A stretch of DNA of 64,000 nucleotides, taken from assembly GCA_963971405.1 (NCBI GenBank), contig OZ020485.1, positions 14,198,001-14,262,000 of the forward strand, read 5' to 3'. Each line of letters starts with the position of its first letter. Position 1 is the stretch's first letter. The notes below the pieces were generated by a model. It had not been told where the DNA came from, searched no databases, and saw nothing but the letters and a program-made list of their open reading frames with translations. A program made the translations under genes and the position numbers. This DNA is from Psococerastis gibbosa (lineage: Eukaryota; Arthropoda; Insecta; Psocodea; Psocidae). This document shows positions 11,401 through 36,900 of the stretch, piece by piece.

Positions 11401-14400
11401 TTTGTTTGTTTTGTTTTAAGGAGACTATTATGTAGATACTTAACTTATCTACATAACTTATCTGTCTCTACCATATTATAACTTAATTTATAATAGATAA
11501 GTTAAGTATCTACATAATGGTCTCCGTAAAGCAAAACAAACAAAAATTGTCGCGCAAGGGAGTGTATGCCAAAGGCGATTTGTCACTTGAAAGTTGAAAC
11601 TGTAAATGCAGAAGAGACAAAAAACTTCTAAAATCGAAATGCTTCTAGCCTACATTGCGGAATGTGTTTTTTTTTTTAAATATTTTAATTAATATATTTT
11701 ACTAATGTTCTGTGCTACTGTAGGAATCGCATTAGACTTTTTATTAAATTTTTGCAGCAGTCAATGCGGCGATTCCAGTGATACCACCAACTCAAAAATT
11801 ATTGTATTTGCAACAAATCGTCAATGCTAATAAGTATGAGTGATTGCAGGTTTCAGAGACTATCCTGAACATGTACCTCGACGAAGAGACTGACGTCAAT
11901 TGGGAAGCGCTGCATTACCTGATAGCACAAGTCAACTACGGTGGTCACGTGACCGACGACTGGGACCGACGTGTTCTCATGACCTATGCCGGCCAGTATT
12001 TTTGTAATGAGGCTCTCACAACTCAGAGATACAAGTAGGTAGTACTTCACATGTCAAGTTGGCTGATTCCTGCGAGGAGTGTAACTCTGTAATAAGCGAT
12101 GAATTGCTTGCTGCATGTGTATCACTAAACGATAATAAAATAGAATAGATTGTGCTTGACCATAAGCTAAGTGTGGCGGATAGTGGTGAGACGTTGGGGG
12201 AAATGGCGAAGGTGATCAAAGGAAATGTAAGCAAAGGCCGGTAAGATGGACATCAGCAGTGTAAACAATGATGCGGCAAAAAGTTGTGGCTGAGATTTAG
12301 CGTGGAGGTTTTCGCCATAAGCTAATTACAGTCGTGATAAACCTATTCAGATTACCAGGTCAAGTGCGCTGTTACTTACTGCACGGATTTTATTGTCAGC
12401 CCTGTCTGCTGGATTGTACATCTGTTCTTCATTTGCCGCAATTTTCTTTTCTTTATGTTGGAACCCGACATACTCATCCACCTTTCTTTTGCCCAACTTT
12501 CCTTTGACATTTCCCCCAGCGTTTTACCGCTATCAGCCTTACTTAGCTAATGGTTAAGCGCCATCTATTACATTAATTTTAAGTCTGTGGACCCAAGTTG
12601 TAGGGTTGCAATAAAATATTTGAAAATGAAAAACAAATGAACAATTCAACAGGCAGGGCAAATAACAAAATAGCAGGCTTAGAAGTTCACCTTGGGTCCC
12701 TGGCGGTCTTACTATATTAATTTTCACTAGGTGGGGCTTATGGCGAAAATCACCCACTTCATCTCGGCCGTAAATGCTAGTAAGGCTGCAGAAATGTTAA
12801 GATTCATATTGTAGCCATCCTAGGCACTAAAATGGGGAAAACCAGGCATGAGAACTTCTCTGCTTTTTTCAACAGGCTTTCCAGTTTGCCGACCTACTAT
12901 ATCCCCGAAGACGGCAAGCTAGAGGCCATCAAAGACCACATTTCCATGCTTCCTGTTGCCGATGCCCCGGAAGCCTTCGGTCAGCACCCCAATGCTGAGT
13001 TCAGCCATTTTATCGCGTCTGCTACGGACATGTGTAGGACGTTGCAGACGCTCAATGCTCAGGCGGGCGATGCAGCTGACTCTTCCCAAGAAGAAAAGGT
13101 ATGACTGCTGTCTGTTCAGATACAGTAGAACCCTTATAAGACAAGAGATTTGCTCAGGTCAAGCTAGGAGTGTTCTAATACCGAGGTTCTTTATTACAAC
13201 AAGTTCATCCCCTACCACTCAAGATCAATAGAGTCAATAGATATTAAGTTAAATTAATTATAACATAAGTTTCATCACAAAATGACTTTTTAACAAAAGA
13301 TTTTCTTTTTTTAATTTTTTGTTTATTTGGGGGGGGGGGATCTGTTGAGTATATGCGTCGGTCGGTGTGTGTCTATTTGTATGTTTATTTGTTTATTTTA
13401 TGTTTACTATGAAGCTAGTTTTTTTTTGTTTTTTTTGTTTGGATAAAATGTAGGGTTGCAGTGACCGGTAGCACAGAATTTTTTAGGTTGTATTGAACAG
13501 CCAAATCGTGCAGATTAGCTACCCATTTTTTACCACAGCTATATTAATTAGGATGTTGTGGTCACCTAGCAGCAGTTTTTTTTTTTTTTTTTTTTTGCTC
13601 AATGCTCAATCTATGGAACAGTCATACTTGCTTTGTATATTTTGTACATGCGGTCGTGTGACATTCTTGAGACGTGTCCTGGCCGTCTTAGATGCTGCGC
13701 TTTTATAAAACATCTTCTCTGTTATTGCTTCAGGTATTAGCGGTGGCCGAAGAGATTCTCAGTCAGCTACCCGGTGAACTTGACTTGGAGAGTACGGAGA
13801 AAAATTTTACTGAATTGGGACCGCTCGAAGTTGTTTTGCTACAGGAAGGAGCCCGCTACAACAACTTGTTGTCTCTGGTGGCTAAAACGCTCAAGAATGT
13901 CCAGCTGGGAATCAGTGGCCGGATTTTAATGACGCCCGATCTTGAAAATGCTTTCACTTGTTTATTATTTGGAAATGTGCCTCCGGAATGGTTAAAAAGT
14001 AAGTTAAATATTAAAACTAACACTAAGAAAGCATTAGTTATAGCTTTTTTCCCCCTCTATATAGGTCGAGTACTAAGATTGCAGCCATGGAAGACATTGT
14101 TATAAATAGAGAGCTTATCAACAATCTGCGTTATGCAGATGATACTGTGCTGGTTGCTTCATTAGGTGAACAACTGCAGTCGTTATTGAATAAAATAAAT
14201 GTAGCCGGCCGAAATGCCGGCTTGATCTTGATCAAAGTGCAATAGACGAAAGTAATGGCGAAGATAAATCTGAATTTCTGAATCTGAATATTGTGCGCCT
14301 GTAGTACAATGTAAACAATACCTCTACCTCGGATGCATTATAAACAATGAGCGGGAGGTGAATCAATAAATTAGCAGCCGCATTGAACTGCTCGAAATGT

Positions 14401-17694: not shown

Positions 17695-18142
17695 TATTGG
17701 TTTACTCTACGAACGCTAGGTGTCATGAAAAGTTTCAAAAACAAAAGTGAACTCCTGCGCCATCTGACAGATGACAATCGAATATTATTTTGAAGATTGG
17801 TTCACTTAACAGACGCTAGGTGTCATAAAAAGCGTGTTTCAAAAATATAAGTGAATGCCTGCGCCATCTGGCAGATGACATTTGAATAAGATTGGTTTAC
17901 TTTACGAACGCTAGGTGTCATGCAAAGCGTTTTGCAAGAACAGAAGTGAACGCCTCTGACACCTAGCCGTTAAAAATTGAACTATATACATTTAGTTTAC
18001 AGACGCTAGGTGTCACAAAAAGCGTGTTTTGAAATTAAAATCGAACGCCTGCGTCATCTGGCAGATGACAATTGAATAAAATTGGTTTACTTTACGAACG
18101 CTAGGTGTCATGAAATGTGTGTTTTAAAAACAAAAGCACAAG
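17695..18142 (+). repeat. Tandem repeat array, about 93-100 bp period, 4.5 units
   Basis: Five occurrences of the core ACGCTAGGTGTCA at about 17713, 17813, 17907, 18003 and 18098. Each is preceded by TTGGTTTACTTTACGA or a variant, and most are followed by GCGCCATCTGGCAGATGACA. Units drift by roughly 10-20 percent. The third unit ends differently (GACACCTAGCCGTTAAAA). An AT-repeat follows at about 18172-18200. Satellite-like and intergenic, between the dynein gene and the nested insertions. Confidence 0.85.
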
Positions 18143-18733
18143 GACATAAAAAATACCTGCTGGTCACGCACTGAATATATAATATATATATAAAATATTG
18201 TTATATAATGACTATTGCCAATCGAAGTTTAGCATGCGAGTCATGTGACATCTATTGGATTATACTCGCAACTAGCCCACGGAGGACACTTCATTGCTGA
18301 AATTATTTATTTACATTATAAGGAATGGTTAAAACAAAAAGAAACTCTACTAATTGTTATATAAATAATAAACCGATAAATATTGCCTCAACTAATGACC
18401 AAACCATGTGAACATTTCCTTGTGAATACTGAATAGTAATATTTTCCCCCGTTTCTCGACATATCTTGAACCTATTAAATTTAGTGCATTTATATTACTA
18501 TTATGTCAAACCAAAGAAAAACTCAATAAATTGGTAAATAGATTAAATAACAGGCAATGAAATACGTCTAAATCACAGGGATCTAGAGCTCTACAGATGC
18601 CGACCAATCACAAGCAAGCATGGACACATTGTGTGTTTTTTTTTTTTTTTTTTTAATTGGGGTACAGGTGTTACCTGTGTGCACTTAAGCCTATTGGGCC
18701 TATTGTGCCCCCTACAACAAAGAATCTACATAT

Positions 18734-19945
18734 CTACATCAGTTCCTCGAGGCCTATTTCCCTCAGGAGAGCCAGGACCTTGAGGGGATTTAGAAGTGGT
18801 AGGTCTTTTACATGTAATTGCAAGTTTCCCAAGCATGCTGCTCTTCTACGTGCGATTGCATCGCAGTGAAGGAGGATATGCTCGGGGTCCTCCGCTCCTT
18901 CGTTACAGAATCTGCATGCTCTAGACTCTCTGACACCTATGTTGGTCAGATGTCCATTCAAGTTGCAATGCCCAGAGAGGAATCCTGTGATCACACGCAG
19001 ATGTCTCCTGTTCATATTAATGCATACTTGGGCTCTTTTGCGCTGGTGGCTTCCCAGGAGCATTTTGGCTTGCCGAAGGCCCGGCAATGAGGTCCAGTAT
19101 TTAGCCACTTTCAGGTTCTCCCTGCCTTTAACAAATCTGCGGGCGAGGGTTTCCCCAACACCGCAAAAAGGTTCGGGTCCCGTAAAAGGGGAGGTAGCTC
19201 CCCTTTTTGCAAGCTGGTCAGCAACCTCATTGCCTTCAATGCCTGTGTGCCCAGGCACCCATATCAAGGTAACCTTATTCGCACCGGACAGTATGTCCAG
19301 TTTCAATCTACATTCCCACACTAGTTGTGAGGTGATTTTGTATGCTGTTATTGCTTTAAGGGCTGCTTGGCTATCTGACATGATAACAATTTCTCTCGAT
19401 CTATATTCCCTGTCGAGATTCATTTGCATACATCTGTCAAGGGCACATAACTCAGCCTGGTAGACTGTAGTTGTCTCCCCAAGAGACTCCAGATATTTCA
19501 CCCCAGGACCAAAGACGCCAAGACCTGTTCTTGGTCTTGTACGTCCCAGCCTAGAGCCATCAGTGAACCACTTAATTGTGTGACTATTGAGAATTCCTGC
19601 TGATTCGCAGTATTCTTTCTTTGTCCCTAATATAGTTTCGAATTCCCTCTTAAAACAGTATTTTGGGTGAATTCTATCGCTTGGCATATCCAGGCAGTGG
19701 TCAGACGTAGTCAGAGAGGCTGAGTCTCTCTTAATTGCCCTTCCACTCCTTTTTACCCCGCTCCTAATAATCCGTAGCCTTGCCATTTCGGCTGACGTTT
19801 CCACTGCAATATGGAGGGGTGGGAAGTCCAGCACAATCTCCATTGCTGCAGTGGGACAGGATTTCATAGCCCCTGTAATGCATACACAGGCCAGTCTTTG
19901 TACTTTAGTGAGGGTGTCTCTTATACTTTGTACTGCAGTCCTGTG
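18734..19945 (-). pseudogene. LINE RNase H and C-terminal zinc region (downstream half)
   Basis: About 404 open codons. It starts HRTAVQSIRDTLTKVQRLAC (RT thumb), then an RNase H domain with KWFTDGSRLG (Asp), TVYQAELCALDR (Glu), IVIMSDSQAALK (Asp) and WVPGHTGIEGNEVADQLAKR (His/Asp). It ends with a zinc-type CRFCNEGAEDPEHILLHC tail and a stop at 18734. The first codons CAC AGG AC are shared with the RT half across the insertion, so the two halves were one ORF. The uninterrupted frame shows the LINE was young when it was hit. Confidence 0.9.
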
Positions 19946-19964
19946 CACAGAACAACATAATATA

Positions 19965-20008
19965 TAAGAACGTTAACTCAATGGTAATATTTTGTTAGGG
20001 AAAGACTG
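19965..20008. repeat. Left imperfect TIR of the THAP/SGNH element
   Basis: Reads TAAGAACGTTAACTCAATGG then TAATATTTTGTTAGGG...AGACTG, matching the inverse of 26136-26182. The terminal bases differ from the right end (CAGGGGCG) only by transitions. Nineteen extra bases (19946-19964) separate it from the 8-bp duplication, so the exact left end is uncertain. Confidence 0.6.
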
Positions 20009-20339
20009 CCAACTGCCAAAAAAAAATAATAGTAATGTTGGCCCTCCCGCGTCAGAATCATTCGCTCCTTTTTTCAAATTTTGTGTGGCCGGGGCCCCGG
20101 CCGGCCCGGCTCGCGCTCCCTTCCTATTTAATATTATATTGACCTATTTTGTATTATATAATTGATTTTTAATGACTACTCTGGTATGTACTCTGACAAC
20201 GTTGTTAGTATTCACCTTATTTTAAACAAACTATTTTTTTTTTCATAGTTCCACACTAAGCCGTACCTAACATATTAAATACAAAATTAAGAAATACTCA
20301 ATGACCAACACACATTATACTTATTAAGAAATATACATT

Positions 20340-21180
20340 TCTTTTTATTACTAAATTGAACTCAGTCCATACAAAATCCATCTACAAATTATTTGTGATA
20401 ACGTGAATAGCCCGAAATGTAATGTATCAACACGTCGAAATAGATTGTTATGTGGAAATAGGAATACATTCTCGTCCTTGCTCTTCTTCTGGAAAGTCGA
20501 GACTGACATCTTGAGCAGGTTCCACCTATACTCATCATCGGTTGCGAGCCTTCCCTTGCTCGGTGATGAGCCATTCGCCGCCAATAAACCGAATCCTTCA
20601 GGCTTTTGCATAGCGAACAATGTCTTCTTCTTCCAGCATCACGTCTATCTTTCTCCTCCTTATCAAGGCGGCATGCATGTTCATCCCGAACTAGATTCTC
20701 TTAATAAACCGCTGACATGACATCTCCTGAAAGTTCAAATGATATGATAAGCCAAACTACCCGCACAAATATGAAGAAGAAAAAGTAACGATGCTTCTCC
20801 TTTCTCCGATCACATGGTGTGTAGAGACCTGTGCATCTTAATACCTTGCCACTTCATATACTGTAGGTACCGTAATTGATCATTTATATATTAATTTCCA
20901 TTATAGGTTACTAATTGATCGGAACATGAGTAGGCAGCCATGGTACAATTACTGACCATGGAAATTTGACATTACCTACACTAATTAATAAAATTGAAAG
21001 CATATTTGGGTAAACTCGCACCAGTCCGTTACACAAGGATATTTCCACAAATCTAACAACATAGATAGTGTCACTTTTCCTGTTTCTGGAACCGTAAAAG
21101 CAGCATGTAAATCTGTCGAATAGGTACTCGAAATGCCAATGCTTTCGTTATAATAGCGTAGGTCTACACATAGGAAAGGA
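20340..21180. other. Interior of THAP/SGNH element, no gene recognised
   Basis: Contains an 89-codon minus-strand open stretch (20351-20620) and, in another frame just upstream on that strand, ALIRRRKIDVMLEEEDIVRY followed by a stop. Neither resembles a family I know, and no splice pattern joins them convincingly. A small palindrome around AATTGATC occurs at 20873 and 20912. Confidence 0.3.
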
Positions 21181-21189
21181 AAAATAGCA

Positions 21190-21500
21190 GATTAGTTAAA
21201 GAGCCCATAGGAAATTGTCAGCCCGAAATTTAAAACTTTTTATTTAATTAACTAAGCAAGTTATTAAAGATTTGGCTCATTTCAGTTGTAGAAGTCTACT
21301 TTATGCATCATATAATAAGGTTATTTTTTACAAAATATTATCATGTCGATGAAAAAGCTACAATTTAAAATATTAGAAATACTATATCTTATCATAGGAT
21401 GCATGAAGTAGTCTTTTACAACTTTAATGAGACAAATGTTAAATAACATGATTCGTTAATTATTTCGGGCTGCCAATTTCCTACGGGCTGTACACCCTTA
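21190..21500. repeat. Foldback family F, diverged copy
   Basis: TTAAAGAGCCCATAGGAAATTG at the left is answered by CCAATTTCCTACGGGCTG... ACCCTTAA at the right. Inside, GTTATTAAAGATTTGGCTCA and its inverse flank TGTAGAAGTCTAC-type sequence. The same internal words occur at 39926-40522 and 60104-60485. TTAA at both ends may be the target site. Confidence 0.65.
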
Positions 21501-21592
21501 ATATACTATCGTCACCCCTATCTGAGATTGCTAGAAAATACTTACTTTGCACTATGGAGTTCAACTTGTCAGCACCGACGACTGCCATTTTC

Positions 21593-21910
21593 TTACTTCT
21601 TACTACTGGGTTCCAGCTTCAGGTGATGCCGATGGCCAGATGATTCATTCACCAGTGCCCAAAGATTCTTCCGTCCCAGAATTTTTTCTATTCCTCCTCC
21701 TCCCAATGCCGTCACGAGTAAGTCCTTCTCCCTGCTTGGAATGGACCATTGCAGGAGAATATGCTCAAGAGTTTCTTCATCCATTCCACAGGCTCGACAC
21801 AGTGCTGAATCCACCAGGTTGAAACAGTGGAGATATTGGTTTGTGGCTCGAGCTGCGAAGGAGGCAACCTCGCGAGGGATTCCCTTGAAGTTCGCCGAGT
21901 CACCAGGCTA
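21593..21910 (-). pseudogene. LINE C-terminal fragment
   Basis: In shifting frames the minus strand reads ATNQYLHCFNLVDSALCRAC then GMDEETLEHILLQWSI and SREKDLLVTALG. The CRACGMDEETLEHIL pattern is the zinc tail of I/Jockey-group LINE polymerases. It is a different family from the host LINE (18636-26837) and lies within the THAP/SGNH element. Confidence 0.65.
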
Positions 21911-22078
21911 GGGCTGAAGTAGGTGTAGCGACCTTCCAACCCTACTTCCTGCACAGCGGTTGATTCATTCCATTTTCAACTCCTGCACTTCGGATTTTAC
22001 GGTCACAACTGGAACGACAGGCTCCTGTACAAATCCTGGCCGCTAGGAGGTAGCTGGAGTGACAATGACGATGGAGGG

Positions 22079-22631
22079 CAGTGGCGTAGCCCCCCCCCCA
22101 AAAAAAATGAGCAAAACCGCTTCTTTAAGATATTTCGGTAAAAAATTCTCCAGAGAGAGTCCCCCATTTTCCAGTTTTAATGATAAATTTATGGTCTGCA
22201 AGTTCAAAACTGTTATGCTGACAAACTATTTCAGGCCTATCTTATAAAAAACATTCACTGAGATAGCCCCCGGGCCCCTCTTATTACCTGTAATATTCTC
22301 AACATGTAAAATATAAACATAGATGCTTTGAAAGTGTGTAAATTCCACTATTTCGAGTTTATTCTTTTTCAAAATAATTCTCCCGGGGGAGACCCCCGGG
22401 CCCCCCGTTCTCTAGGGTATAATATGTGAAAACCTCACTAATTTGGGCCCATTTATCTTTTTTTCTCTGGGGGATGAGTCTTGGGGTCGTAATGCCCCCC
22501 CCCCCCAGAAATTTTGGTTATTTACGCCAATGCACCCCATTCGAAAACCTATCGGAAGCAGGCAAACTTTATGCATTGATGTTGCACGAAAACTAGACCC
22601 CCACCCGAAATAAATTCTGGCTACGCCACTG
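22079..22631. mobile_element. hAT-like MITE with 8-bp TSD
   Basis: Starts CAGTGGCGTAGCC (22079) and ends GGCTACGCCACTG (22631), a perfect 13-bp inverted repeat. The flanks ATGGAGGG (22071-22078) and GTGGAGGG (22632-22639) are an 8-bp target duplication with one mismatch, as hAT elements make. The interior is non-coding with two C/G tracts next to CCCGGG words. It landed 28 bp beyond the stop codon of the SGNH ORF. Confidence 0.88.
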
Positions 22632-22658
22632 GTGGAGGGACTGCCTGAAACGTGGGCA

Positions 22659-23240
22659 TTACGTTGGACGGATGAATTTCGCATAGCCTACCGCTTTCCT
22701 AAGAAAAGCGGAAAACACAATCTTTCCATCATCATTCAAATGCAACTTATCACGATTATTAAAGAGCTCTTTCTTAATCTGATAGGTTCCATTTGATGAG
22801 ATCATGAAGGGAATATACGTCCGAGAATATAGAACATTGTTTCCGTAGCGCCTACAGAGTTGACAAAGTAAAACATTACTCGTGCGTATTTTCTCTCGCA
22901 ATTCTTCGTCGAATCTTGGCAAAATCGAGGACACTACAATGGAACAGCGCTCAATAACATGGAGCCGGTCCAGCAATTTCCGCATTTCGGCCACAAACTC
23001 CTCGGGCGTTTGACGGGTATTGATGTTCCGGGCTCCAATGTTATTGGTCCCAAAGTGCACAATAACGATCACATACTTTAAACTCGATTCTACCACCATC
23101 CGACAAATTTTCATGGTTGTCAATCGATTGAGCTTTGCGCCACTCCAGGGCACTACTTCAGCGACTCGTCCGTCCAATTTAACCCCACGGACCATAGAGT
23201 CCCCCACAACGCTTATTCTAGGCTTACACTTCCTCGCCAT
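22659..23240 (-). CDS. SGNH/GDSL hydrolase-fold protein, element-borne
   Basis: A 193-aa intact ORF starting ATG GCG at 23240. It carries the four SGNH blocks: VVGDSMVRG (catalytic Ser15), Gly34 in PWSGAK, FGTNN (Asn66) and DKLHLN (Asp164, His167). The fold predicts esterase/acyl-hydrolase chemistry; the substrate is unknown. No signal peptide is evident. Esterase-type domains of this class occur in ORF1 of some CR1-like LINEs, but here no RT follows and the ORF sits 182 bp behind a THAP ORF on the same strand. A strong splice acceptor (TTCTGTTTCAG|ACAATG, minus strand) lies just before the ATG, so the message may be spliced from upstream, conceivably from the THAP exon. All catalytic residues are kept, so decay is slight. 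Confidence 0.8.
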   Translation of the reverse strand: MARKCKPRISVVGDSMVRGVKLDGRVAEVVPWSGAKLNRLTTMKICRMVVESSLKYVIVIVHFGTNNIGARNINTRQTPEEFVAEMRKLLDRLHVIERCSIVVSSILPRFDEELREKIRTSNVLLCQLCRRYGNNVLYSRTYIPFMISSNGTYQIKKELFNNRDKLHLNDDGKIVFSAFLRKAVGYAKFIRPT

Positions 23241-23422
23241 TGTCTGAAACAGAATGGAAATGCGCTCATTATGATCTTTTTAAACATGTCAGTGTTTTAA
23301 TTTTATAACGTGTTAAGCCAAAAGAGACCTTAAATGACCTATCTTATTACTTTAAATGGCTGATAAACATAGTAGTTTCCTTACTAACTATTATGTAAAA
23401 CTTGCCGTCATTCATTGTTAAA

Positions 23423-24676
23423 TCACATCATCTTCGCAATAGCATTGTCGGCCCTCGGTGCTAATTTATAAAAAGCAACAGCTAGTGCTTTTTGCTTGTT
23501 ATTCCATCTTCTGCCCTTGCCTGGTCTGCCTCTGTTGTGCAGTTCTCCTTCGACAATATGGAATGCTAGAGGAGATAGCTTGTCTTGAAGGGCTTCATTG
23601 ACTTGTACCTCCAGATCTTTCAATTTATCCTTCAAACCAGCGGCCTCAGCGCACTTACGTATGTACCCAGTTCGAAAAGCCCGAGCCATTTCTCCAAGCT
23701 TAGCCCGTCGTGGGGTAAGGTCTTTCTTCATCAATCCCAACTGTAATGGATTCAGCTTTTTGTTTTCTAATAGGCGACGTCTCTTCGGTGGACTAGGGAT
23801 GAAAAGTTTACGCTGGGCTTTCAGTTTCGATGTCTTGCATTGATTGGTATCCATGGATCTAGCTTGCTGTGCGATAACTCCGTCTCCATGGTCATCCGTA
23901 TAATGTACGGAAAAGTTCTCGCCAGCAGAGGCAAACGAATTCTGTTCTTCGGCATTGGAGACTGTCATTGGCGTCCTTTCCATTTCATGTGAAGTTACTT
24001 CCCAACCCATAGGTGTGCTCTCATGCTGAACGAGAACTCCGTCACCTTGGACATCCGTATAACATACGGAATCAGGATCAGAGAAGTTCTCGCCAACAGA
24101 GGCGAATGAATGCTGTTCTTCGCCATTGGAGACTATCTTCGGCGTCCTTTCCATTTCGTAAGAAGAAACTTCACAATCCATAGCTGTGCGCTGATACTGG
24201 GCAATCACCCCATCATCTTCTGCATCCGGTTCGAGTTGTACTGAGCCAGCAGGAGAAACAGAACTATTGGGAAGGGTATTGGGGCATGATGTGCGAGTAG
24301 GCTCTGGGGTTGTACATAAGAATTCATGGGAAAGAAAAACAGGTGAATTATTTGCTTCACGGCTGCAACTAGCAGGTGGACTTGGATAGGTACGGGAAGA
24401 CTCATCTGACCCGACTATGAGAATCCTCACAGGCAAGTTAATTCGGGGAATCGAGCCACGAATCAGCCTTTTCGTAAAGTGGAGATCACGATACTGAGAG
24501 TCAGCGAAGTGTCTACCACAAATGGAGGCTCGTTTGAATTTTTCACCGTAGTTAATCGGTTTCCCTGCCAGCAGCGACCAAACCTCTTTGAGATCTTTAT
24601 TAGGAGGAAACATATGCATGGATACACCGCATTTCGATTTCTGTGAACAGAATTCTACGCAACACCTAAGACTCAT
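23423..24676 (-). CDS. THAP-domain DNA-binding protein, P-transposase-like N-terminal part
   Basis: 417 aa from ATG at 24676 to TGA at 23423. Residues 1-82 form a THAP C2CH zinc finger: Cys6 and Cys10, Trp33, Cys53-x2-His56 followed by Phe57, and a closing GSIPRINLP (equivalent of the AVPTIF box). Residues about 150-275 contain a duplicated acidic segment (EMERTPKIVSNGEEQ and EMERTPMTVSNAEEQ, each followed by SFAS.GENFS and a GDGV word). A basic patch PSPPKRRRL follows, then a coiled coil, then GRRWNNKQKALAVAFYKLAP, the motif that in P-element/THAP9 transposases precedes the catalytic core. The ORF ends just after it, so the RNase H core is missing. A splice acceptor in the 5' leader near 24707 suggests an untranslated exon upstream. 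It probably binds the element's own ends (inference). Confidence 0.8.
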   Translation of the reverse strand: MSLRCCVEFCSQKSKCGVSMHMFPPNKDLKEVWSLLAGKPINYGEKFKRASICGRHFADSQYRDLHFTKRLIRGSIPRINLPVRILIVGSDESSRTYPSPPASCSREANNSPVFLSHEFLCTTPEPTRTSCPNTLPNSSVSPAGSVQLEPDAEDDGVIAQYQRTAMDCEVSSYEMERTPKIVSNGEEQHSFASVGENFSDPDSVCYTDVQGDGVLVQHESTPMGWEVTSHEMERTPMTVSNAEEQNSFASAGENFSVHYTDDHGDGVIAQQARSMDTNQCKTSKLKAQRKLFIPSPPKRRRLLENKKLNPLQLGLMKKDLTPRRAKLGEMARAFRTGYIRKCAEAAGLKDKLKDLEVQVNEALQDKLSPLAFHIVEGELHNRGRPGKGRRWNNKQKALAVAFYKLAPRADNAIAKMM

Positions 24677-24826
24677 CTCTACCGGTTTTAATAAAATAAA
24701 TAACTGAAATAGTTGAAAAAATTAAAATACTTATCTGTTGTCAATTACTGTCAATATTTTCTCACCAGTTCAAGTGCTCCAGTGTCCAGGTGGCTCCTGC
24801 ACATAAAAATAGTTTAGTTAGGCCTC

Positions 24827-24977
24827 CTGATCATGGCGATTATAATAAAGGGGTTATTATAATTCCCAGATATTAAAAATGTAAACAAGAGAATTTTTAA
24901 ATCATAGTGCTATTCAAAATTTGTATGTTTACAGTTTTAATCACAGGAGTAAGTTCATGGCAATCGCTATGATCAGT
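24827..24977. repeat. Foldback family T (TTAAAAATGTAAACAA), copy 1
   Basis: The outer arms CTGATCATGGCGATT and AATCGCTATGATCAG enclose inner arms TTAAAAATGTAAACAAGAG and the drifted inverse TTTGTATGTTTACAGTTTTAA. The inner word recurs at 49340, 50045 and 52090 in similar foldbacks. Confidence 0.6.
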
Positions 24978-26135
24978 CTGTAGGTGGAATGACTTTAAAA
25001 GGTGTGTTCAATTAGTGCCACATAGGCTACTATTTCTACTTGTAATTGAACATTTTATTTACCTTACAAAACCTTATTTTTGCCTCCACAGTCAATATTT
25101 CATTACAATTCAGAATATGTTAAAATGTTAGTGGAATAAGGTCACTGTCAACACACAAGTTAGGTTGTATATGCCAGCTACATTAAGGTGCAATTTGTGT
25201 ATCAAGTTATTGTGTAGATTAAAATGCAATTGTAACGTAATTTGCCTTTTTCAAACAGTTACTAATAAGATCTTACACATGGTCAAAACTGACTGTGTCC
25301 AACTAAACGTGATTAAATTATTGTAGGTCACACATTTCACATTTTTTTGTTAACTAGGCATATATGGTTGTGCTAACATCTTACAGGCATATCTCATAGC
25401 ACTGACAAGAGATCTATCAAAGTGAGTGCGTAGGTTTTAAAAATTTGAATTTAAAAAATTGTAATTTACCAAATGTACCTTTTACTATTTTTCCTTCTCA
25501 CTTGAACACTTCACAAACAAGGAATGAATGATGAATTAAACAAATTTTAGTTGTTTTGCTACACAAATGAGTTGCACATGCTATCGATTTTCCATTTTGA
25601 AAATTAAAACCATGTAATATATGTAAGGTGTTGGATGGTATACAACAACTGAAAATGTTTAAAAAAAACAGGCACATGAAATATGTTTACTCACCTCACT
25701 TCCCGTCGTAGTTCAATTTGATATTGGCTCACAAACTTATTAAAATTTATAAAATTATTAAAGGCCGCTGTGTGTTATCCAGTCCAATGTCGGAAATCGG
25801 AATGTCCGTTGTTTTCATAGAAATATATTAACTAGAACGGCGGGAGGCATAGTAACCCTTACGGGGCGCCCCTTTATCATAAGCCAAATATCAGAGATAA
25901 GTATCAACGTTAAATATGTCGAAGTCTTACACATTGCAGAACGGATATCTGACTCGGTCTCAACCCTGTACTTAGCTTATAGAGGCTACACTAGCCGCCA
26001 TGTTGACAAGGATCTGCAGCCACGGGATGTTTGTAGTAAATCACAAACAGGTGTTACCAACATAAAATTTAAAAAAATTACAATTTCGCGGTTGGCTATC
26101 GTGTGTTGGGATCAGGGCCAAATGGCCAATCAGAA

Positions 26136-26182
26136 CAGTTCCCGCGTATAACAAAAACCTCCATTGAAGTTAAACGCCCCTG
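26136..26182. repeat. Right TIR of the THAP/SGNH element
   Basis: On the minus strand it begins CAGGGGCGTTTAACTTCAAT, then GGAGGTTTTTGTTATACGC and GGGAACTG. It directly abuts the GTCCTGTG duplication at 26183-26190, and its inverse is found at 19965-20008. Confidence 0.65.
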
Positions 26183-26837
26183 GTCCTGTGGGCCCAAGTC
26201 ACACTTCCATACGTAATAATGGGCCTTACAATCAATAAATACAAATCTCGGAGGGCTCTGGGGGAAGTGCCCCATTTCTTCCCCGCCATTCTCCTGCAAA
26301 TCATAATAGATCGTTTGGCTTTAACCACTACGTCTTCTATATGCTTCTTGTAATTTAGTTTAGTATCCAGGGTTACTCCTAAATACTTGACTTGCCGTTC
26401 CCATGCTATTGGTTTGCCCCCAATGAGGACTTGCTTCAATGATAGCTTCCTTCTATTAGTGAAGGGAACTAGACATGTTTTGGCCACATTTAGTTTGAGG
26501 CCTACTGTTTTGCACCATTCAGCAATAATATCAACCACGTGCTGCAGGAGCTCGCACAGTGTACTGTCATTTTTCCCTCTGACCATGGCCACGACGTCAT
26601 CAGCATAGCCAATGCATTCTATGCCCCTGTCAGTAAGTATTTGTAGAAGCTTTTCTACTACAATCGTCCACAATAGCGGTGACAGCACACCCCCCTGGGG
26701 GCATCCCCTAGTGGTTTTCATAGCCACCCCCTGTGCCACCGCTACCCTGCTAGTTAGGGCTGCCATTACCCAGTCTATAATAGTCGGGTCAACCTCCTTG
26801 TCGTTGAGGGCATTCTCAATAGACGAGTGTCATTGTA
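26183..26837 (-). pseudogene. LINE reverse transcriptase domain (upstream half of split ORF)
   Basis: Minus-strand frame beginning IENALNDKEVDPTIIDWV, then TTRGCPQGGVLSPLLW (RT block with the PQGG turn), IECIGYADDVVAMVRG (catalytic YADD), KYLGVTLDTKLNYKKHIE and LIVRPIITYGSVTWAHRT. Here it meets the 6.2-kb insertion and runs into a stop two codons later. It was 5'-truncated at insertion, so the first RT blocks are absent. The downstream half is at 18734-19948. Confidence 0.88.
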
Positions 26838-28432
26838 ACATTGTGTGCTAAGCCCTTTTTCTACTCAACAATAGAGGTGGGTCGTTCTTACTGGAGCCGT
26901 TCCATGAGCTAGGAGCCAGTTGCAACGGATACAAAAATATTAGGTTCTTGAGGAACGCAATGCAAAATGGGGGTATCCGGAATACACGTGGATTGGTGGA
27001 TTAGGGGCCACTGGTGAACCTTTCTATTTCTATATCTTTAGTGATATTTTAGAAAGTTCCAGAGTTATATTTTATAGACTAGGCCTGGCAATTGAAGTAA
27101 AACTTATTTAATGTAGCCTCACTGCAACATCAGGTTATACTTATACCAAAAGGTACCTAGTGGCTACTGAAGGTGCGGTAGTCTACGAAAGACAACCTTT
27201 GTCCTGTAATTAGGTTTGCCTACTTAATTCTTATAGGTACTGCTTTCCAAGCTGCGTACAGTCGACCCTTAGCTGATGCTTAAGGATGATCCAAGTAGGA
27301 TACATAATAGGTATCACGAGGAATATTTAGTCCTGTGGTACGTACAAGTAGTCAAATAGGGCTTACTTATATAATAGCCTTTTATAGAGGGTTCATTGCA
27401 ATCGCAATATATAAGTACCTAACTTAATTGAAGCTTCAAGATAGGGTAAAAGGAAGGTACCGGTAAAGAAATTTTGCTAAGGGGGATATGGTAGGCCTAC
27501 ATGCGTAGCCCATAGGTCTAAGTTTTAATGAGTTTTAAAAACCAATCAATATTTCAATAAGTTACAATATAATTAAGAACAAAATTGTAAAATCAACTGT
27601 AATTCTGTAAAATGTGTAGCCTACGTGTTTTTTTATGCATCAAACCAACTCCCTGTTTCATAGTTTATTTATATATTATGTTGTTCTGTGGTTTAACTGT
27701 TCCAGACCAGACTCAGGCAGGCTATGTGGGTTTTCCGACTCAATGCCAAGGCGCCCGGTAGTAAAATCTGAAAAGAAGGAATTAATTTAAAAAATGTCTA
27801 TTATATTATATGTTAAAATTCCATATTAAATAAGCAATAGGCCCTACATTCAATAAATGTTCACAGCCTTTTTTTAGCATTTTAGGTTTAAATACTTCAG
27901 TCCGGCGAGTCTGAACATACAAAATTCAGTTTAACCTACACCGTTTAGTAGCCTTCCTAGCTGATGTCCAAGTTGACCCAAATCACTGACTACATTATGA
28001 AGTGTTTAAAACAAATTATCTAGCCAACCTGACCCGGAAAGCACATTTGCTTTCCTAATTGTAATGTATTTTTTTTTTAACGTAATGTAGAAGTAGAACA
28101 GTAAGAGGCAAAAGAACAGCCATCAGCATTGAGGATCGAAAATTCAACTCATATACTGGCTATAGCCCATAACCGTTATATAATCAGAATGTATTTGACC
28201 AAATGAAAAAGAAATTCCCCTTAACGTGTTGCCAAAAATTTTAATACGGGAAAATTACTGCCAGAGTAATTACTTTATGCCTTTGATTGCAACGCCCTGA
28301 TTTCAGCGAGAAATGATAATCAGTTAGGTCAACACAAGCTTGGGGTAGGTAGCTTATGTTTTTACCTATTATAGGCCCTAGCTCCATAGTATGTAACTTA
28401 GCATTTAAAGAACAACACTACATTGAACTTAC

Positions 28433-28585
28433 CTTCCGTTGTCTTAAACGTTAAACGTTTCCACTCTGAAAGAAATGCCAATGGAGTGAGCGGCCTCAAT
28501 ATATGCTCGCGTAACTTTTCGTATGTTACAAACACCTCTTTACAATTAGGGCAGATAGGGCCGAAGAAAGAATTTCTTCAAACTG
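28433..28585 (-). other. Exon-like stretch with CPNC motif in long-TIR element copy 1
   Basis: The minus strand reads FFGPICPNCKEVFVTYEKLR then EHILRPLTPLAFLSEWKRLT and FKTTEG, followed at once by a GTAAGTTC splice donor. The C-x2-C-x12-H spacing resembles the first part of a C2H2 finger, but no second His follows at the usual distance. The stretch is also open in copy 2 with mostly conservative changes. No in-frame ATG precedes it, so it would be an internal exon of the element's own gene. Confidence 0.4.
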
Positions 28586-28645
28586 AATGTGTCAGTGTGT
28601 CACACAGTTATCCTTTTTATGGAAAGTAGGCCTAAGTAAATGCCA

Positions 28646-30826
28646 CAGGGATCTAGAGCTATACAGATGCCGACCAATCACAAGCTAGCATGGACACATT
28701 GTGTGTTAAGCCCTTTTTCTACTCAACACTAGAGGTGGGTCGTTCTTACTGGAGCCGTTCCATGAGCTAGGAGCCAGTTGCAACGGATACAAAAATATTA
28801 GGTTCTTGAGGAACGCAATGCAAAATGGGGGTATCCGGAATACACGTGGATTGGTCGATTAGGGGCCACTGGTGAACCTTTCTATTTCTATATCTTTAGT
28901 GATATTTTAGAAAGTTTCAGAGTTATATTTTATAGACTAGGCCTAGCAATTGCAGTAAAACTTATTTAATGTAGCCTCACTGCAACATCAGGTTATACTT
29001 ATACCATAAGATACCTAGTGGCTACTGAAGGTGCGGTAGTCTACGAAAGACAACTTTTGTCCTGTAATTAGGTTTGCCTACTTAATTCTTATAGGTACTG
29101 CTTTCCAAGCTGCGTACAGTCGACCCTTAGCTGCTTAAGGATGATCCAAGTAGGATACATAACAGGTATAACGAGGAATATTTAGTCCTGTGGTACGTAC
29201 AAGTAGTCAAATAGGGCTTACTTATATAGCCTTTTATAGAGGGTTCATTGCAATCGCAATATAAGTACCTAACTTAATTGAAGCTTCAAGATAGGGTAAA
29301 AGGAAGGTACCGGTAAAGAAATTTTGCTAAGGGGGATATGGTAGGCCTACATGCGTAGCCCGTAGGTCTAAGTTTTAATGAGTTTTAAAAACTAATCAAT
29401 ATTTCAATAAGTTACAATATAATCAAGAACAAAATTGTAAAATCAACTGTAATTTTGTAAAATGTGTAGCCTACGTGTTTTTTTTATGCATCAAACCAAC
29501 TCCCTGTTTCATAGTTTATTTATATATTATGTTGTTCTTTGGTTTAACTGTTCCAGACCAGACTCAGACAGGCTATGTGGGTTTTCCGACTCAATGCCAA
29601 GGCGCCCGGTAGTAAAATCTGAAAAGGAATTAATTTAAAAAATGTCTATTGTGTTAAAATTCCATATTAAATAAGCAATAGGCCCTACATTCAATAAATG
29701 TTCACAGCCTTTTTTAGCATTTTAGGTTTAAATATTTCAGTCCGGCGAGTCTGAACATACAAAATTCAGTTTAACTTAGGCCTACACCGTTTAGTAGCCT
29801 TCCTAGCTGATGTCCAAGTTGACTCAAACCACTGACTACATTATGAAGTGTTTAGAACAAATTATCTAGCCAACCTGACCTGGAAAGCACATTTGCTTTC
29901 CTAATTGTAATGTAATTTTTTTTTAAACGTAATGTAGAAGTAGAACAGTAAGAGGCAAAAGAACAGCCATCAGCATTGAGGATCGAAAATTCAACTCATA
30001 CTGGCTATAGCCCATAACCGTTATATAATCAGAATGTATTTGACCAAATGAAAAAGAAATTCCCCTTAACGTGTTGCCAAAAATTTTAATACGGGAAAAT
30101 TACTGCCAGAGTAATTACTTTATGCCTTTGATTGCAAAGCCCTGATTTCAGCGAGAAATGATAATCAGTTAGGTCAACACAAGCTTGGGGTAGGTAGCTT
30201 ATGTTTTTACCTATTATAGGCCCTAGCTCCACAGTATGTAACTTAGCATTTAAAGAACAACACTACATTGAACTTACCTTCCGTTGTCTTAAACGTTAAA
30301 CGTTTCCACTCTGATAGATATGCCAATGGAGTGAGCGGCCTCAATATATGCTCGCGTAACTTTTCGTATGTTACAAACACCTCTTTACAATCAGGGCAGA
30401 TAGGGCCGTAGAAAGAATTTCTTCAAACTGAATGTGTCAGTGTGTCACAGTTAGGTCTATCCTTTTTTATGGAAAGTACGTAAATGCCACATTAATGTGT
30501 TGTTGAATTGAAATACTACTCCACAAAACCAGCAAATGGCCAATGGAGGCTACATATATTGTTTTTTGTTATATCTTACAGCTGATCTGTTGATGTGCTT
30601 ACTGTTTACAGTTTACACGTGGAAAAATGGTTCCATTTTGCATTGCGTTCCTCAAGAACCTAATATTTTTGTATCCGTTGCAACTAGCTCCTAGCTCAAG
30701 CCTAAAGGAACGTTCATAGGAACGGCTCCAGTAAGAACGACCCACCTCTAGTGTTGAGTAGAAAAAGGGCTTATCACACAATGCTTGCTTGTGATTGGTC
30801 GGCATCTGTAGAGCTCTAGATCCCTG
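28646..30826. mobile_element. Long-TIR DNA element, copy 2 (both ends present)
   Basis: Left end CAGGGATCTAGAGCTATAC; right end GAGCTCTAGATCCCTG at 30826. The terminal inverted repeats are about 180 bp and include TAAGCCCTTTTTCTACTCAA and GAACGACCCACCTCTAG or inverses. The left 1.85 kb is near-identical to copy 1, with small indels. The interior is AT-rich with no long ORF apart from a short conserved minus-strand exon-like stretch (30278-30430). The right end falls about 130 bp before the ZNF830 start codon, so it may supply or disturb that promoter (inference). Confidence 0.78.
30278..30430 (-). other. Exon-like stretch with CPDC motif in long-TIR element copy 2
   Basis: Counterpart of 28433-28585: FYGPICPDCKEVFVTYEKLR and EHILRPLTPLAYLSEWKRLT, again ending at a GTAAGTTC donor. 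Reading frame and donor are conserved between the copies. Confidence 0.4.
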
Positions 30827-30955
30827 TAATGGCTGTTGGCTGTCTTGTGATGGCCGACTGTTGTTTATTGTTATTGTTTACTGATTTTCTTTGGGAATTT
30901 GGTTCTAATTTTTTATGAAATTGCTCAGTTGAGACTGGAGTTGCATGACTTTAAA

Positions 30956-33900
30956 ATGGCACAAAAGAAGAAGATTGGTCAGTCAGAATTGCGAAAATTG
31001 ATGAGTGAACAGAAGAAACGCGTTGAAGCAGTTGGCATTACTACAAAAAAAATTGAATCACCCCTGGCAAAATATCCTTTTATTTTATTTTTCTATTGTA
31101 GTCATTGTGGGTATTTTATTTGCGGTTAACGAAGACCCTTTACGTATTCACCAAGAACGATTGGTTACCCAAATTAGTATAATAGTTCAACAATTGGCTC
31201 CCGGTGCTTGCCATGTTATACTGCTGTGTTTCAGTCAACTACCTGAACTACCATGTAATGAATGCTACACCTATCTCTAGTGGGTACGGTTGCCAGATTT
31301 TTTTTTGGCTGTTATAGTGCATTGGTCCAAAGAACATAGTAAGGATACACAGATATAGTAAATTCACAAAACACAAAAACTAGCCTATAGACCTAATACT
31401 TTTTAATGTAACTGCAAAGGCTTTCACGGCTTTTTAATCAAGTGACATTAGAAAAAAAAGTTCCCTTATTGTTATTAGGGCTATGCTAAAACTAAGCAGA
31501 GCTTGTCATTCTTTTGTGTCTGTCAAGATATTTTAGCCTTTTTGACCACGTAGAAAACATCATTTATATTTATAGGATAAATACCCTACCAGAAATTAGT
31601 TTTTAATCAACTTATTTACGCTGTTTCGTTTTTCCCTCCACTTCATTACCGAGGAACTATCGGTGAACGCTGAAGTGGCAAACTTGGAAAGAAAGTAATA
31701 TTCTTAAGCGTGTAAAAATCATTTACTGATTTTTTGAAAGAAAAATGGTGAGTCCCGGGGCCGGATCACAAGTTGTGGGATGCATATACAATAAAAAGAC
31801 ATAAGACATTTTTTGTTTTTTGTTATATTTTTCCGTTAAATTATACGATACAAGTAAAGTATAAAATAAAATCGTCAGAATATTGTCAAAATCAGGTAGT
31901 TCTGTCATTGTGCTAGTGCCTCAGTGACAGTGTAGAAAGCTTTCTCTAATAAGAGATGGGTTCTAAGCAATTTAGGGAAGTTAGAAGCATTTCTCGCCGC
32001 TCTCAGTTCAATCAGGAGGTTTCTAAGGTAGGCGAAACCTTGTACTATAGTATAGGATCCAGTCGCTCACACTTGGCTGGGCGTGGAGCTCCGAGCTGGC
32101 CTTACAAGGTCTCCCCGTTTGTGGTATACCTATTATATACATACATATATTTGAATTAGGATCACGCGGGAAAGCTACAGCAGGAGACATGGCTACGTAT
32201 GTTATTAATTTATTATTATTATTTTCAGTTTTAAGTGCACATGGCATTAATTATTAATTTGTACTTTAATCCTCCATAATATACCTTTATAAAAACCTAA
32301 AGCTCTAATTACTAAGTCTACAACACTGGCGCAGTCGGTAAAGAAAAAAAGTTCAGTGAGTGGTATATTTTACAGCCAGGATTTCGATTTGAGTTAAAGT
32401 ATAACCAAACCTGGATACAGTAATACATAATGGATCAGGAAACGAAGGATGCCTTAAAGGCAATGGCGAAAGCTATAGCAAATTTAGCTGCCACCAGTTC
32501 TAAAAGTTCAACTACATCCAATATACCAAATTTCCCAAGATACACTGAAGGTGAGAATATCACTGATTTTTGTACGCAGTTTGAAGGGTTAGCTACGGTG
32601 CATAATCTGGACGACGCGAAAAAGAGTGCTTCATTTTTGGCACTTTTGCCTCCAGCAACATTTCAATTACTTAAGAATTTACTTTATCCTAGCACGTTTG
32701 CTAGCAGCGATTATGCCACATTGCGTTCCACTTTGGAGACGCATTTGAAACCGTCACCTTTAAAATTTCCCTCTCGTCATTCGCTATTTGCAAGAAGGCA
32801 GAAGGAAGGGGAAAGCGTTGCTGAATACATGGCCTCTAAGAGCACTTGCAATACCGTGCGATTACACAAGCACAGTTCTTGCAGAATTGCTTAAAGATAT
32901 TTTTGTGGCTGGCATTAGGAGTAAAACTATTTTAGATCGGTTATTTATAGAGCCGGATTCATCTAAGTTAGAAGATTTATACAAAGTTGCTGTTGCTATA
33001 GAAAAGGCTGAACCGTCTACATTACAAATGCTTGGAAGTCAGGGAACGCAGGTATAAGTTTAATACTAACCATGCAGCTTCTACTTCTAATCAGAAAACC
33101 TACAATTATTTAAAAAAGAAGAAATGTCACCAAAATAAGCCGAAACAGTCGGGTTACAATGAAACAACGGTGAAACCTCAATGTTATGCGTGTTCTAAAT
33201 ATTTTCATACAGCTAAGGAATGCCGCATCAAAGATAAGTTCCGCTGTACTTATTGCAATGCATCGCAGCACGTAGAATCTGATTGCTTTAAAAAAAGCCG
33301 AAGACGCTAAGTTGCACAGTAAAGCAGTACATAAAATTAAGTCAGATACAGACTTTAAAACGCCTTGGTGCGATACTGTAAATATTTGTGGGAAGAATAT
33401 ACAGTTCGAATTAGATACAGGAGTTTCAGTTTCGATTTTACCCAGAAAAATTTACGAATCACTTCTGAATGCTCCAAAATTACAGCCTACCACAGAAGTG
33501 TGTACACCCTATGGAGATACTTTAGTTATACGCCCCTTGGGTTTTGCTAACGTTACAGTTAAATATAAAAAAAGAGTGGAAGAACTACCATTATACATAT
33601 TGGATTGTGACCAAATTGCACTGATGGGACGCCATTGGCTTCTGGCATTACAAATATTCAGTCCTATTCATGCTATACGCAATATTGAAGAGTACAAAAA
33701 TACATACCCGTCCATTTTCAAAGAAAGTATTGGATGTGCTCCGGATACCGTTTCCATACAACTTAAAGAAGGAGCCAAGCCTGTATTACATAAACCAAGG
33801 CCAGTTCCATTTGCATTGAATCCCATGATAGAAGAACAAATAAGAAGTTGGATTAAGGATGGTATACTAATACCGGTTGAACACACCGTATGGAGTTCTC

Positions 33901-36900
33901 AATTGTACCCGTGCTACAGAAAAGTAAGGTATGTCTGTGTATAGACTGTTCTTGTGGTGTAAATCAGAACTTAGTTGTACCGCAAATACAAATCGATTCA
34001 GTTAATGATCTACTGAGTGAAGCTGCTAAAGGGAAGATATTTGCTAAACTCGATATACGTAAGGCTTACTTATGCTTAAAACTGGATGAAGAATCTTCAA
34101 AAATACTAACGATTGCTACATATTTAGGTTATTACAGGCCTACAAGACTTATGTTTGGTTGTGCTTCTAGCCCTGCTAATTGGCTTAAGTTTATACAGAA
34201 AGTTTTAGCCGATATTGATGGACTGTCAATATTTTATGATGACATATTTATACGTGCTTTTACAGAAGAGGATTCGCATCGAATTTTACATTTAGTTTTT
34301 CGTCGTTTACATGAATACGGCTTAACTTTAAATAATGAGAAGTGTCAGTACTTCGTTACAAAATGTACTTTCCTTGGACATGATATTTCGCCAGGGGAAA
34401 TTCGTCCTTCAAAGGATCATGTTGAAGCTATACATAGTGTTAAAAGACCAGAAAATGTGTCACAGTTGAAGACTTTTCTAGGCATGGTGTCTTTTTACTC
34501 AAAATATTTTGAAGATATGGCGACAATCGCGACGCCTCTATACAATTTAACTCGCAAAGGTGTACTATTCAAGTGGACGAAACTTTGTGAAAATGCATTT
34601 ACTAAATTGAAACGACTTCTTACATCTGATAAGGTTTTAGTGCCTTTCGATCCGAAACCACCGTTACATCTTTCATGCGACGCCGGACCTACAGGACTCG
34701 GTGCCGTTATGAGTCACGTGATGCCGGATGGCAGTGAACGTCCAATCACGTACATACACAAACGTCTGACGAAGACAGAAGAGGGATATAGCCAAACAGA
34801 CAAAGAAGCATTAAGCATTCGTTGGGCTGTTGGAAAGCTACATACTTACTTTATGGCAAATCCATTTACATTGGTAACGGATCATTTACCTCTTATTTAT
34901 ATTTTTGGACCGAAAAGGAAGTAATTACCCCCTTTATGTGCAACGAGATTGTTACATAATGCTCTTTTTCTACGAAATTTCACATATACTATCAAATACA
35001 GAAAGGCTGAAGAACATGGTAATGCTGATTTTATGAGTAGATTGCCACAGCATTCACCTGAGTTAGCATCGCTAGCTGATGAAGAGGATGAACTTGATGA
35101 ATTTCTTGTGCATCACCTCAGCGTTCTACCAGTTACTGCAACAAATCTGGCAAAAGCTACACAAGCAGATCCTACAGGACAGGAAATCATAAGGAAGTTA
35201 CGGGCAGGTATTTCCTTAGGTGATAAAGGCTCTCTATACTCGTTACAAAATGGTTGTATTATGAGATGACTACGATATTACATTCCTCCGAAGTTTCGAG
35301 ATAATATTTTACAAAAGTTACACTCTGCACACCTTGGAATTTCGAAAATGAAAGCATTAGCTAGGAGTTACGTGTACTGGAAAAACATTGAATCTGACAT
35401 AGAACAGTTATGCCGAGAGTGCACCGCATGTGTCTTACATAAAGGTAAAACTCCTAAAGTAGAAACCCATTACTGGGAATATTCATTTAAACCATGGGAG
35501 CAGATTTTGGTTTTTATGGGAAAATCATATATTTCATAATTGTTGATGCCCATAGTAAATGGCCGGAAATACAAATAATGCCTAACATGAATTCAAGTAC
35601 CATAATTCATGTATTGCAATCATTATTTTCACGTTATGGTTTACCTAAGACTATTGTAACGGATAATCAGTCTTCATTAATCAGTAATGAAGTGTTGTCA
35701 TTTTATCGCAGTTTGAACATCAAACCAATCACCATTGCCCTCCATACTTTAGCCCTACGAATGGCCAAGCCGAGAGACTGGTGGGAGCTTTGAAGCTTGC
35801 GTTACGTACACTGGCTTACGCTAATGGTTCGCCAGTACAACTCCTGAACAATTTTCTGATGGCGTACAGACGAGCACCGCATACAATTACAGGGGTGAGT
35901 CCCGCATCTCAATTTTTAAAAAGAGAAAAAAATTTTAAAGAGAAAAATTTCACCGGAGAAAATTAGACGACGCTCAGAAACAATCTTTACAGATGTACAA
36001 TTTTCGCCAAATGAAACCGTTGCAGTTCGAGATTGCTACTCTCCATTACAGAAGTGGAAGCTAGGTACCATAATTGCAAGAGATGGACAATTATCTTATA
36101 CAGTGTTAGTTAATGGTGCACTAGCAAGAAAGCATGTGAAGCAATTACGAAAGGTTGGTCAAGGACTTTCACCAACTTTGTCGTACACCTCTACCCTACC
36201 AGAAGATATGGGAAGAAATGAAGAGGATTCCGAAACCTCCGTACTGCACTCTTCGGACCTTACTTCTACACCTTCTAACTCTAATCAAGCTACACCTACA
36301 GGATCTACAAAAGTTGTTACGCCAACGGTAGATACTACAGTGTCAACAAGCTTGCCTACACCGGAGACGCCACTGGCTATTCGTCGGGGTCGCCGCCAAT
36401 ATGCCGTAGTTTATATGGCTCATTACAAGTGAGTGGTAGGCCTGGAGAGTTACCTCCGGAAGACACACAGAGCTAAGGCGCTTGACTACAAAGAGGCCAC
36501 TATTTAGTTTTTTTAACAGTCACGCGTTTGTTCCAGTTTAAGTCTTTGTCAACTTGCATTCCTAAGAATCTGACGCTGTCGGTTGCAGTTACTGGTTGTC
36601 CTGCTATGCGTGGGTATATGTCAAGCTCAGGTTAGGAGTAAGAGAACACTGCTAGTTGCGTTTTTGTTTCGTTTAGCACGAGCCCATGTGTGGCAAATTC
36701 GAGTCTTATGTCATCCAGCTTTTTAGTGCACTTTATCGCAGCTTCTTCTATTGAAGGACCAGTTTTGATAAGCGTAGTGTCGTCCGCGAACATCAGCCTT
36801 TCGTTTTCATTACTTTCAAGTAGTGAGTTGACATAGAGTAGATAGCAAATTGGTCCCATAATGGAGCCTTGCCCTACGCCTATGTTGTTTGTAGCTACTT

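Follow-up and report, generated by a model that had tools for sequence, protein, structure and literature searches.

We analysed a 64,000-nt window of the genome of the psocid Psococerastis gibbosa (GCA_963971405.1, contig OZ020485.1, positions 14,198,001 to 14,262,000, forward strand), in which a long interspersed nuclear element (LINE) of LOA-like type is interrupted within its polymerase reading frame by a 6,237-bp block. The block, hereafter the element, carries two intact open reading frames (ORFs), one for a protein with a THAP domain and one for an SGNH hydrolase, and has imperfect inverted repeats near its ends (Table 1; positions are those of the window). The clean insertion, the 8-bp duplication at its borders, the inverted repeats and a scan that found no transposase core in the parts covered support a DNA transposon, non-autonomous in the single copy from which the element is known.

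Insertion into a LINE reading frame

The LINE frame is cut precisely. The 8-bp sequence GTCCTGTG abuts both ends of the block, the reverse transcriptase half and the RNase H half share one frame, and joining the flanks gives an open reading that runs ...ITYGSVTWAHRTAVQSIRDTL... / ...LLIVRPIITYGSVTWAHRTAVQSIRDTLTKVQRLACVCITGAM... across the junction. A preliminary description of this locus, made from the sequence alone, had reported a LINE frame that stops, resumes 6.2 kb away and carries the same 8-mer on both sides, and these features are as described. It had also proposed looking for an empty LINE site, and relatives of the LINE supply one. We compared 120 listed of the 279 protein-database matches to the RNase H half, aligning the two halves separately. 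Forty-three of the 120 align with both halves, and in 40 of these 43 the two alignments overlap by exactly two residues, as an 8-bp duplication predicts for an uninterrupted site; the exceptions are P0019 (−3), P0053 (−1) and P0061 (+2). Named relatives among the matches listed are mostly from insects and include one LOA-9-like protein of Triatoma. The 6.2-kb block is a genuine insertion.

The host LINE is 5'-truncated, is terminated by ~19 T (plus strand), is flanked by a 10-bp duplication of its own, ACATTGTGTG (18626–18654 and 26838–26847), and sits within an older repeat. It looks young because its reverse transcriptase–RNase H frame is still open. The order of events is the old repeat, then the LINE and last the element.

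The THAP and SGNH reading frames

The longer ORF has a THAP domain at its N-terminus (Pfam, E = 1.6e-8), with all residues of the reference list for the C2CH and P, W, F, P positions (PMC4168063) present: C5, C10, P24, W33, C53, H56, F57 and P77. Its stop-free run of 432 codons exceeds the maximum of 224 (mean 119) among 300 Markov resamples. The domain is followed by a long linker that contains an internal duplication in frame, and then by a leucine-rich C-terminal stretch; the dN/dS ratio of the duplication (bootstrap median 0.47, 95% range 0.22–1.00) is suggestive only. A PDB search with this ORF returned THAP1 only (E = 0.56). The shorter ORF holds all four SGNH blocks, GDS, SG, GTNN and DKLHLND, which include the catalytic S, G and N and the DxxH, and matches Lipase_GDSL_2 at E = 1.8e-6 with 29.0 bits, short of the curated cut-off of 32.9. 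Single-sequence AlphaFold models had mean predicted local distance difference test (pLDDT) scores of 36.6 for the THAP ORF and 34.1 for the SGNH ORF. Thus the THAP domain and the SGNH hydrolase of the preliminary description both stand, and the P-transposase pre-core motif that it placed in the THAP ORF drew no support from Pfam or PDB.

Putative splice sites suggest how the two ORFs may be expressed. A simple splice-site scan placed a donor upstream of both ORFs and an acceptor close before each start codon. Across the entire minus strand of the window there are 15 acceptors scoring at least 10.8, 41 scoring at least 9.3 and six donors scoring at least 11; chance placement of the SGNH acceptor so near its ATG is unlikely, and the other sites are less telling. 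Donors within the THAP ORF reach at most 6.5, against 11.2 at the leader donor, so that a THAP–SGNH fusion by splicing is disfavoured and two mRNAs are preferred. One leader exon, ending at 25695, is thus probably joined to 24703 for THAP or to 23243 for SGNH.

The SGNH ORF is plausibly a captured passenger enzyme gene of the element, a second gene that would be reached through alternative splicing of the shared leader exon. It might instead be part of a LINE-derived piece, consisting of an ORF1-type esterase and a 3' remnant, that was inserted into the transposon and is not cargo of its own. Its best relevant PDB lead is 4c1b (E = 0.084, no proof of descent), an ORF1-encoded protein that we take to be a LINE ORF1 esterase, and a weak zf-RVT remnant (E = 0.038) lies downstream in the same orientation. 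Both similarities are insignificant, however, a repeat search showed no direct repeat bounding such a piece, and the acceptor-like site 3 nt upstream of the ATG suggests a spliced gene. We regard a LINE origin for the SGNH ORF as distinctly improbable.

Element ends and the P-like reading

The right tip of the element is CAGGGGCGTTTAACTTCAATGGAGGTTTTTGTTA and the left tip, which begins CACAG, is CACAGAACAACATAATATATAA; CAGGGGCGTTTAACTTCAATGG is a tip sequence of the element. The inverted-repeat cores are offset, lying 25 bp from the tip on the left and 6 bp on the right, a difference of 19 bp. When ~30 bp of the two ends were aligned end to end with one end sliding, in a window picked after the first alignment had been viewed, 23 of 31 columns were identical, a score equalled by none of 1000 random pairs. 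With 200-bp and 400-bp ends the best match was a different, A+T-rich pair, equalled by 12/1000 and 85/1000 random pairs, respectively. The imperfect inverted repeats of the preliminary description therefore exist, although they are offset and, as weighed below, stand out only modestly in a free local alignment. The ~30-bp cores are comparable with the terminal inverted repeats (TIRs) of Anopheles P elements, which are 27–31 bp (PMC1562414).

The terminal 22 bp on the left recur 1.5 kb past the right end of the element, exactly in the nearer unit and with one mismatch in the farther unit of a neighbouring repeat. This repeat consists of tandem 1.8-kb units (26838–30827), 95.8% identical, with inverted ends near 30633–30827, and is possibly a foldback-like element. 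Apart from the left-tip 22-mer and four overlapping 22-mers in a nested repeat, no 22-mer of the element recurs in the window. Because these 22 bp are an exact copy of a nearby repeat, repair has probably patched the left end. In this reading, breakage of that tip after insertion would have cost ~6 bp, and resealing by ~25 bp of templated filler, 22 bp of it taken from the repeat, would account for the copy now present and for the offset of the cores. With its left tip altered in this way, the copy is therefore probably immobile now. If the stretch is indeed a repair patch, it offers a readable trace of breakage and repair at a transposon end, with the donor sequence still adjacent.

Alternatively, the 22 bp could be the true family terminus and belong also to another element that lies hidden in the neighbouring repeat, which would be compatible with a P-like classification. 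Both tips begin with CA and directly abut the duplication, and the 22-mer is found in both repeat units. In that case, however, the two tips of the element would not match one another, and past the 22 bp the repeat and the element ends have no comparable stretch in common. Nor was a duplication with at most one mismatch, such as would mark an element end, found in the 3.7 kb on the relevant side of unit 1; candidates with two mismatches exist there, as chance would give. We therefore consider a shared terminus doubtful, and prefer repair.

For the class of the element, we scanned 10 of its 58 open frames with a length of 45 aa or more, together with read-through translations of most of its length, against Pfam (E ≤ 1). 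The parts scanned contained no RNase H, GTP-binding, hAT or other transposase family, with only weak unrelated matches and the zf-RVT remnant returned. Failure to detect an RNase H core with a GTP-binding insertion would be expected of a non-autonomous copy, and with no catalytic core in the parts scanned the element would have moved with a transposase made elsewhere. A 103-aa frame rich in cysteine and arginine (20389–20700, minus strand), situated in the element's left arm, has no convincing family.

Three THAP-bearing transposon groups were compared by their target-site duplications. Kolobok elements duplicate TTAA (PMC6004289) and ISL2EU elements AT (PMC4482050); the P element duplicates 8 bp (PMC7776569), as does Pdre2, with 7 bp for 1360 and Galileo (PMC10983969, PMC3276498, PMC4168063). 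Kolobok and ISL2EU are rejected on the 8-bp GTCCTGTG. Because P alone among the three makes 8-bp duplications, P-like is the best reading, and the combination seen here, a THAP protein together with short inverted repeats and an insertion that duplicates 8 bp, is the P pattern (PMC7776569, PMC1562414, PMC10983969). We lean, by a modest margin over even chances, towards a non-autonomous member of the P superfamily, or of a close P-like group, with a THAP ORF and an SGNH passenger, that entered the LOA-like LINE, presumably by cut-and-paste, and had its left tip repaired. P proteins that are truncated but still bear the THAP domain bind to P DNA and act as repressors of transposition (PMC7776569). 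By analogy, the THAP protein encoded here, with a DNA-binding domain and a leucine-rich end and no catalytic domain, is probably a repressor-like end binder that would damp transposition.

Several observations weigh against a P-like classification. Within the THAP ORF, the linker exceeds 200 aa, which is long by the standard of P transposases. The C-terminal 165 aa matched no Pfam family at E ≤ 10, the C-terminal 125 aa retrieved from PDB at E ≤ 10 one unrelated chain and no P chain, and the helix-turn-helix (HTH) and pre-core region of the superfamily was absent from these searches. The claimed pre-core motif, RRWNNKQKALAVAFYKLAPRADNAIAKMM, looks P-like by eye. More broadly, P-type HTH, GTP-binding and RNase H parts gave no Pfam or PDB signal in the parts scanned. 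In a database of 5.8 billion protein sequences, none of 2207 THAP candidates and none of 152 SGNH candidates passed the strict limit of E ≤ 0.001, where the LINE half, as a control, found its 279 relatives. The stop-free run of the SGNH ORF, 206 codons, is of a length within the chance range of the resamples given above. Free local alignment of the element ends does modestly better than chance, its score being equalled by 76/5000 random pairs for 50-bp ends and 15/1000 for 100-bp ends. The tips also differ, since the right CAGGG fits the YARNG given for P (PMC2820524) and the left CACAG does not. Finally, GTCCTGTG agrees with the fly P target motif GTCCGGAC (PMC3276498) at five of eight positions, which is too weak to use.

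The right tip and the duplication point in a second direction. A CAGGG tip next to a duplication of 8 bp would equally suit a hAT element, and YARNG tips occur in hAT elements too; the tips do not decide between the two superfamilies. The element could accordingly be a non-autonomous hAT-type transposon that picked up an SGNH gene and a THAP gene of its host and was moved by a hAT transposase made elsewhere. Its right tip, CAGGGGCG, resembles hAT tips, a hAT-like miniature inverted-repeat transposable element (MITE) is nested within it, an N-terminal THAP domain with a C-terminal coiled coil would also suit a host THAP protein, and Pfam and PDB searches of the ORF found no P-type parts. Against this, the left tip does not fit the hAT consensus, and the frames scanned hold no hAT domain. 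A hAT origin seems unlikely to us. The preliminary description of a P-like, possibly non-autonomous transposon is borne out as far as a non-autonomous DNA transposon goes; its P-like character is the best reading, from the 8-bp duplication and the THAP domain, and falls short of proof with the pre-core motif undetected. The 22-bp copy at the left tip, the nested MITEs and the splice-like sites are additions to that description.

Precedents and neighbourhood

Like members of the P superfamily (Drosophila P, Anopheles P, zebrafish Pdre2 and Galileo), the element has an N-terminal THAP domain and, near its ends, short inverted repeats, although the left core lies further in than the right one; it shares the 8-bp duplication with P and Pdre2, and truncated THAP proteins also occur in non-autonomous copies of the superfamily. 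It differs in that HTH, GTP-binding and RNase H parts were not detected, and in its extra SGNH gene and one altered tip. The non-autonomous medaka P element Izanagi likewise has an 8-bp duplication and a THAP coding remnant, and 27-bp TIRs, whereas its THAP sequence has degenerated and an enzyme gene is lacking (PMC2820524). Other precedents concern the enzyme. Texim SGNH genes are associated with fish Helitrons, which unlike the element are rolling-circle transposons, and no THAP ORF is described for them in the accessible portion of that report (PMC4021074). ISL2EU transposons pair a THAP-bearing protein with a second ORF that has an enzyme domain; they carry a YqaJ nuclease in place of SGNH, a complete transposase and an AT duplication (PMC4482050). 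The 4c1b esterase is an SGNH-type domain encoded by mobile DNA, although its source is a retrotransposon. Animal Pack-TIRs hold non-transposon sequence between transposon ends, as the element may, but their duplicated stretches are short, with a median of 224 bp (PMC8277862).

In the accessible portions of the literature searched, we found precedents for each half and no description of THAP and SGNH paired in one DNA transposon, in agreement with the preliminary description, whose author knew of none. In LINEs and alongside fish Helitrons, SGNH esterases are present with no known part in the spread of these elements. Should a P-like element that moves by cut-and-paste retain one as well, the use of the enzyme to mobile DNA could be examined across three unrelated transposition mechanisms. 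A bolder and, we think, unlikely extension is that a P-like family of this insect's lineage keeps SGNH as a regular accessory gene, co-expressed with a THAP end binder through alternative splicing of a single transcript, with the esterase activity selected for transposon spread, which would parallel the SGNH genes of LINEs and those found with Helitrons.

Table 1 Features of the element and its surroundings in the window
Feature	Position	Strand	Basis or remark
Whole element, 6237 bp	19946..26182	- (gene direction)	interrupts LINE frame
Target-site duplication GTCCTGTG, left copy	19938..19945	.	empty site in LINE relatives
Target-site duplication GTCCTGTG, right copy	26183..26190	.	empty site in LINE relatives
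Host LINE, reverse transcriptase half	26183..26829	-	
Host LINE, RNase H and zinc-knuckle half	18734..19945	-	
Putative splice donor (last exon base), score 11.2	25695	-	
Putative splice acceptor (first exon base), score 9.3, 27 nt upstream of THAP ATG	24703	-	
Putative splice acceptor (first exon base), score 10.8, 3 nt upstream of SGNH ATG	23243	-	
THAP ORF, 417 aa + stop	23423..24676	-	ORF list, Pfam, residue check
SGNH hydrolase ORF, 193 aa + stop	22659..23240	-	ORF list, Pfam, block check
Right terminus, CAGGGG + inverted-repeat core CGTTTAACTTCAATGG...TTTTTGTTA	26147..26182	-	
Left inverted-repeat core CGTTAACTCAATGG...TTTTGTTA, 25 bp in from left tip	19971..19998	+	
22-bp left-tip stretch identical to 27669-27690 (minus); probable repair patch	19946..19967	+	
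Matching 22 bp in neighbouring 1.8-kb repeat, outside element	27669..27690	-	
Nested hAT-like MITE, 553 bp, flanks ATGGAGGG / GTGGAGGG	22079..22631	.	
Nested palindromic repeat, 28-nt arms 93% complementary	21202..21489	.	relatives at 40 kb and 60 kb of window
Weak LINE-type zinc-knuckle remnant, zf-RVT E=0.038	21596..21907	-	

The nested hAT-like MITE has CAGTGGCGTAGCC ends, and its 8-bp flanks differ at one base. Searches of viral contigs gave no relatives and no exact match to a terminal 20-mer, and Rfam, at gathering scores, had no match in the window. Elsewhere in the window, plus-strand exons of a dynein heavy chain (1309–14105) encode stalk, AAA_9 and Dynein_C domains. Other mobile DNA includes a polymerase frame with RVT_1 and RT_RNaseH (33881–34924), probably from a long terminal repeat (LTR) retroelement, another reverse transcriptase fragment with RVT_1 (36635–37123, minus strand) and a mariner-like fragment with HTH domains, including HTH_48 of the Mos1 transposase (43454–43882, minus strand). 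A tandem repeat with a 95-bp unit in 3.6 copies lies at 17793–18136.

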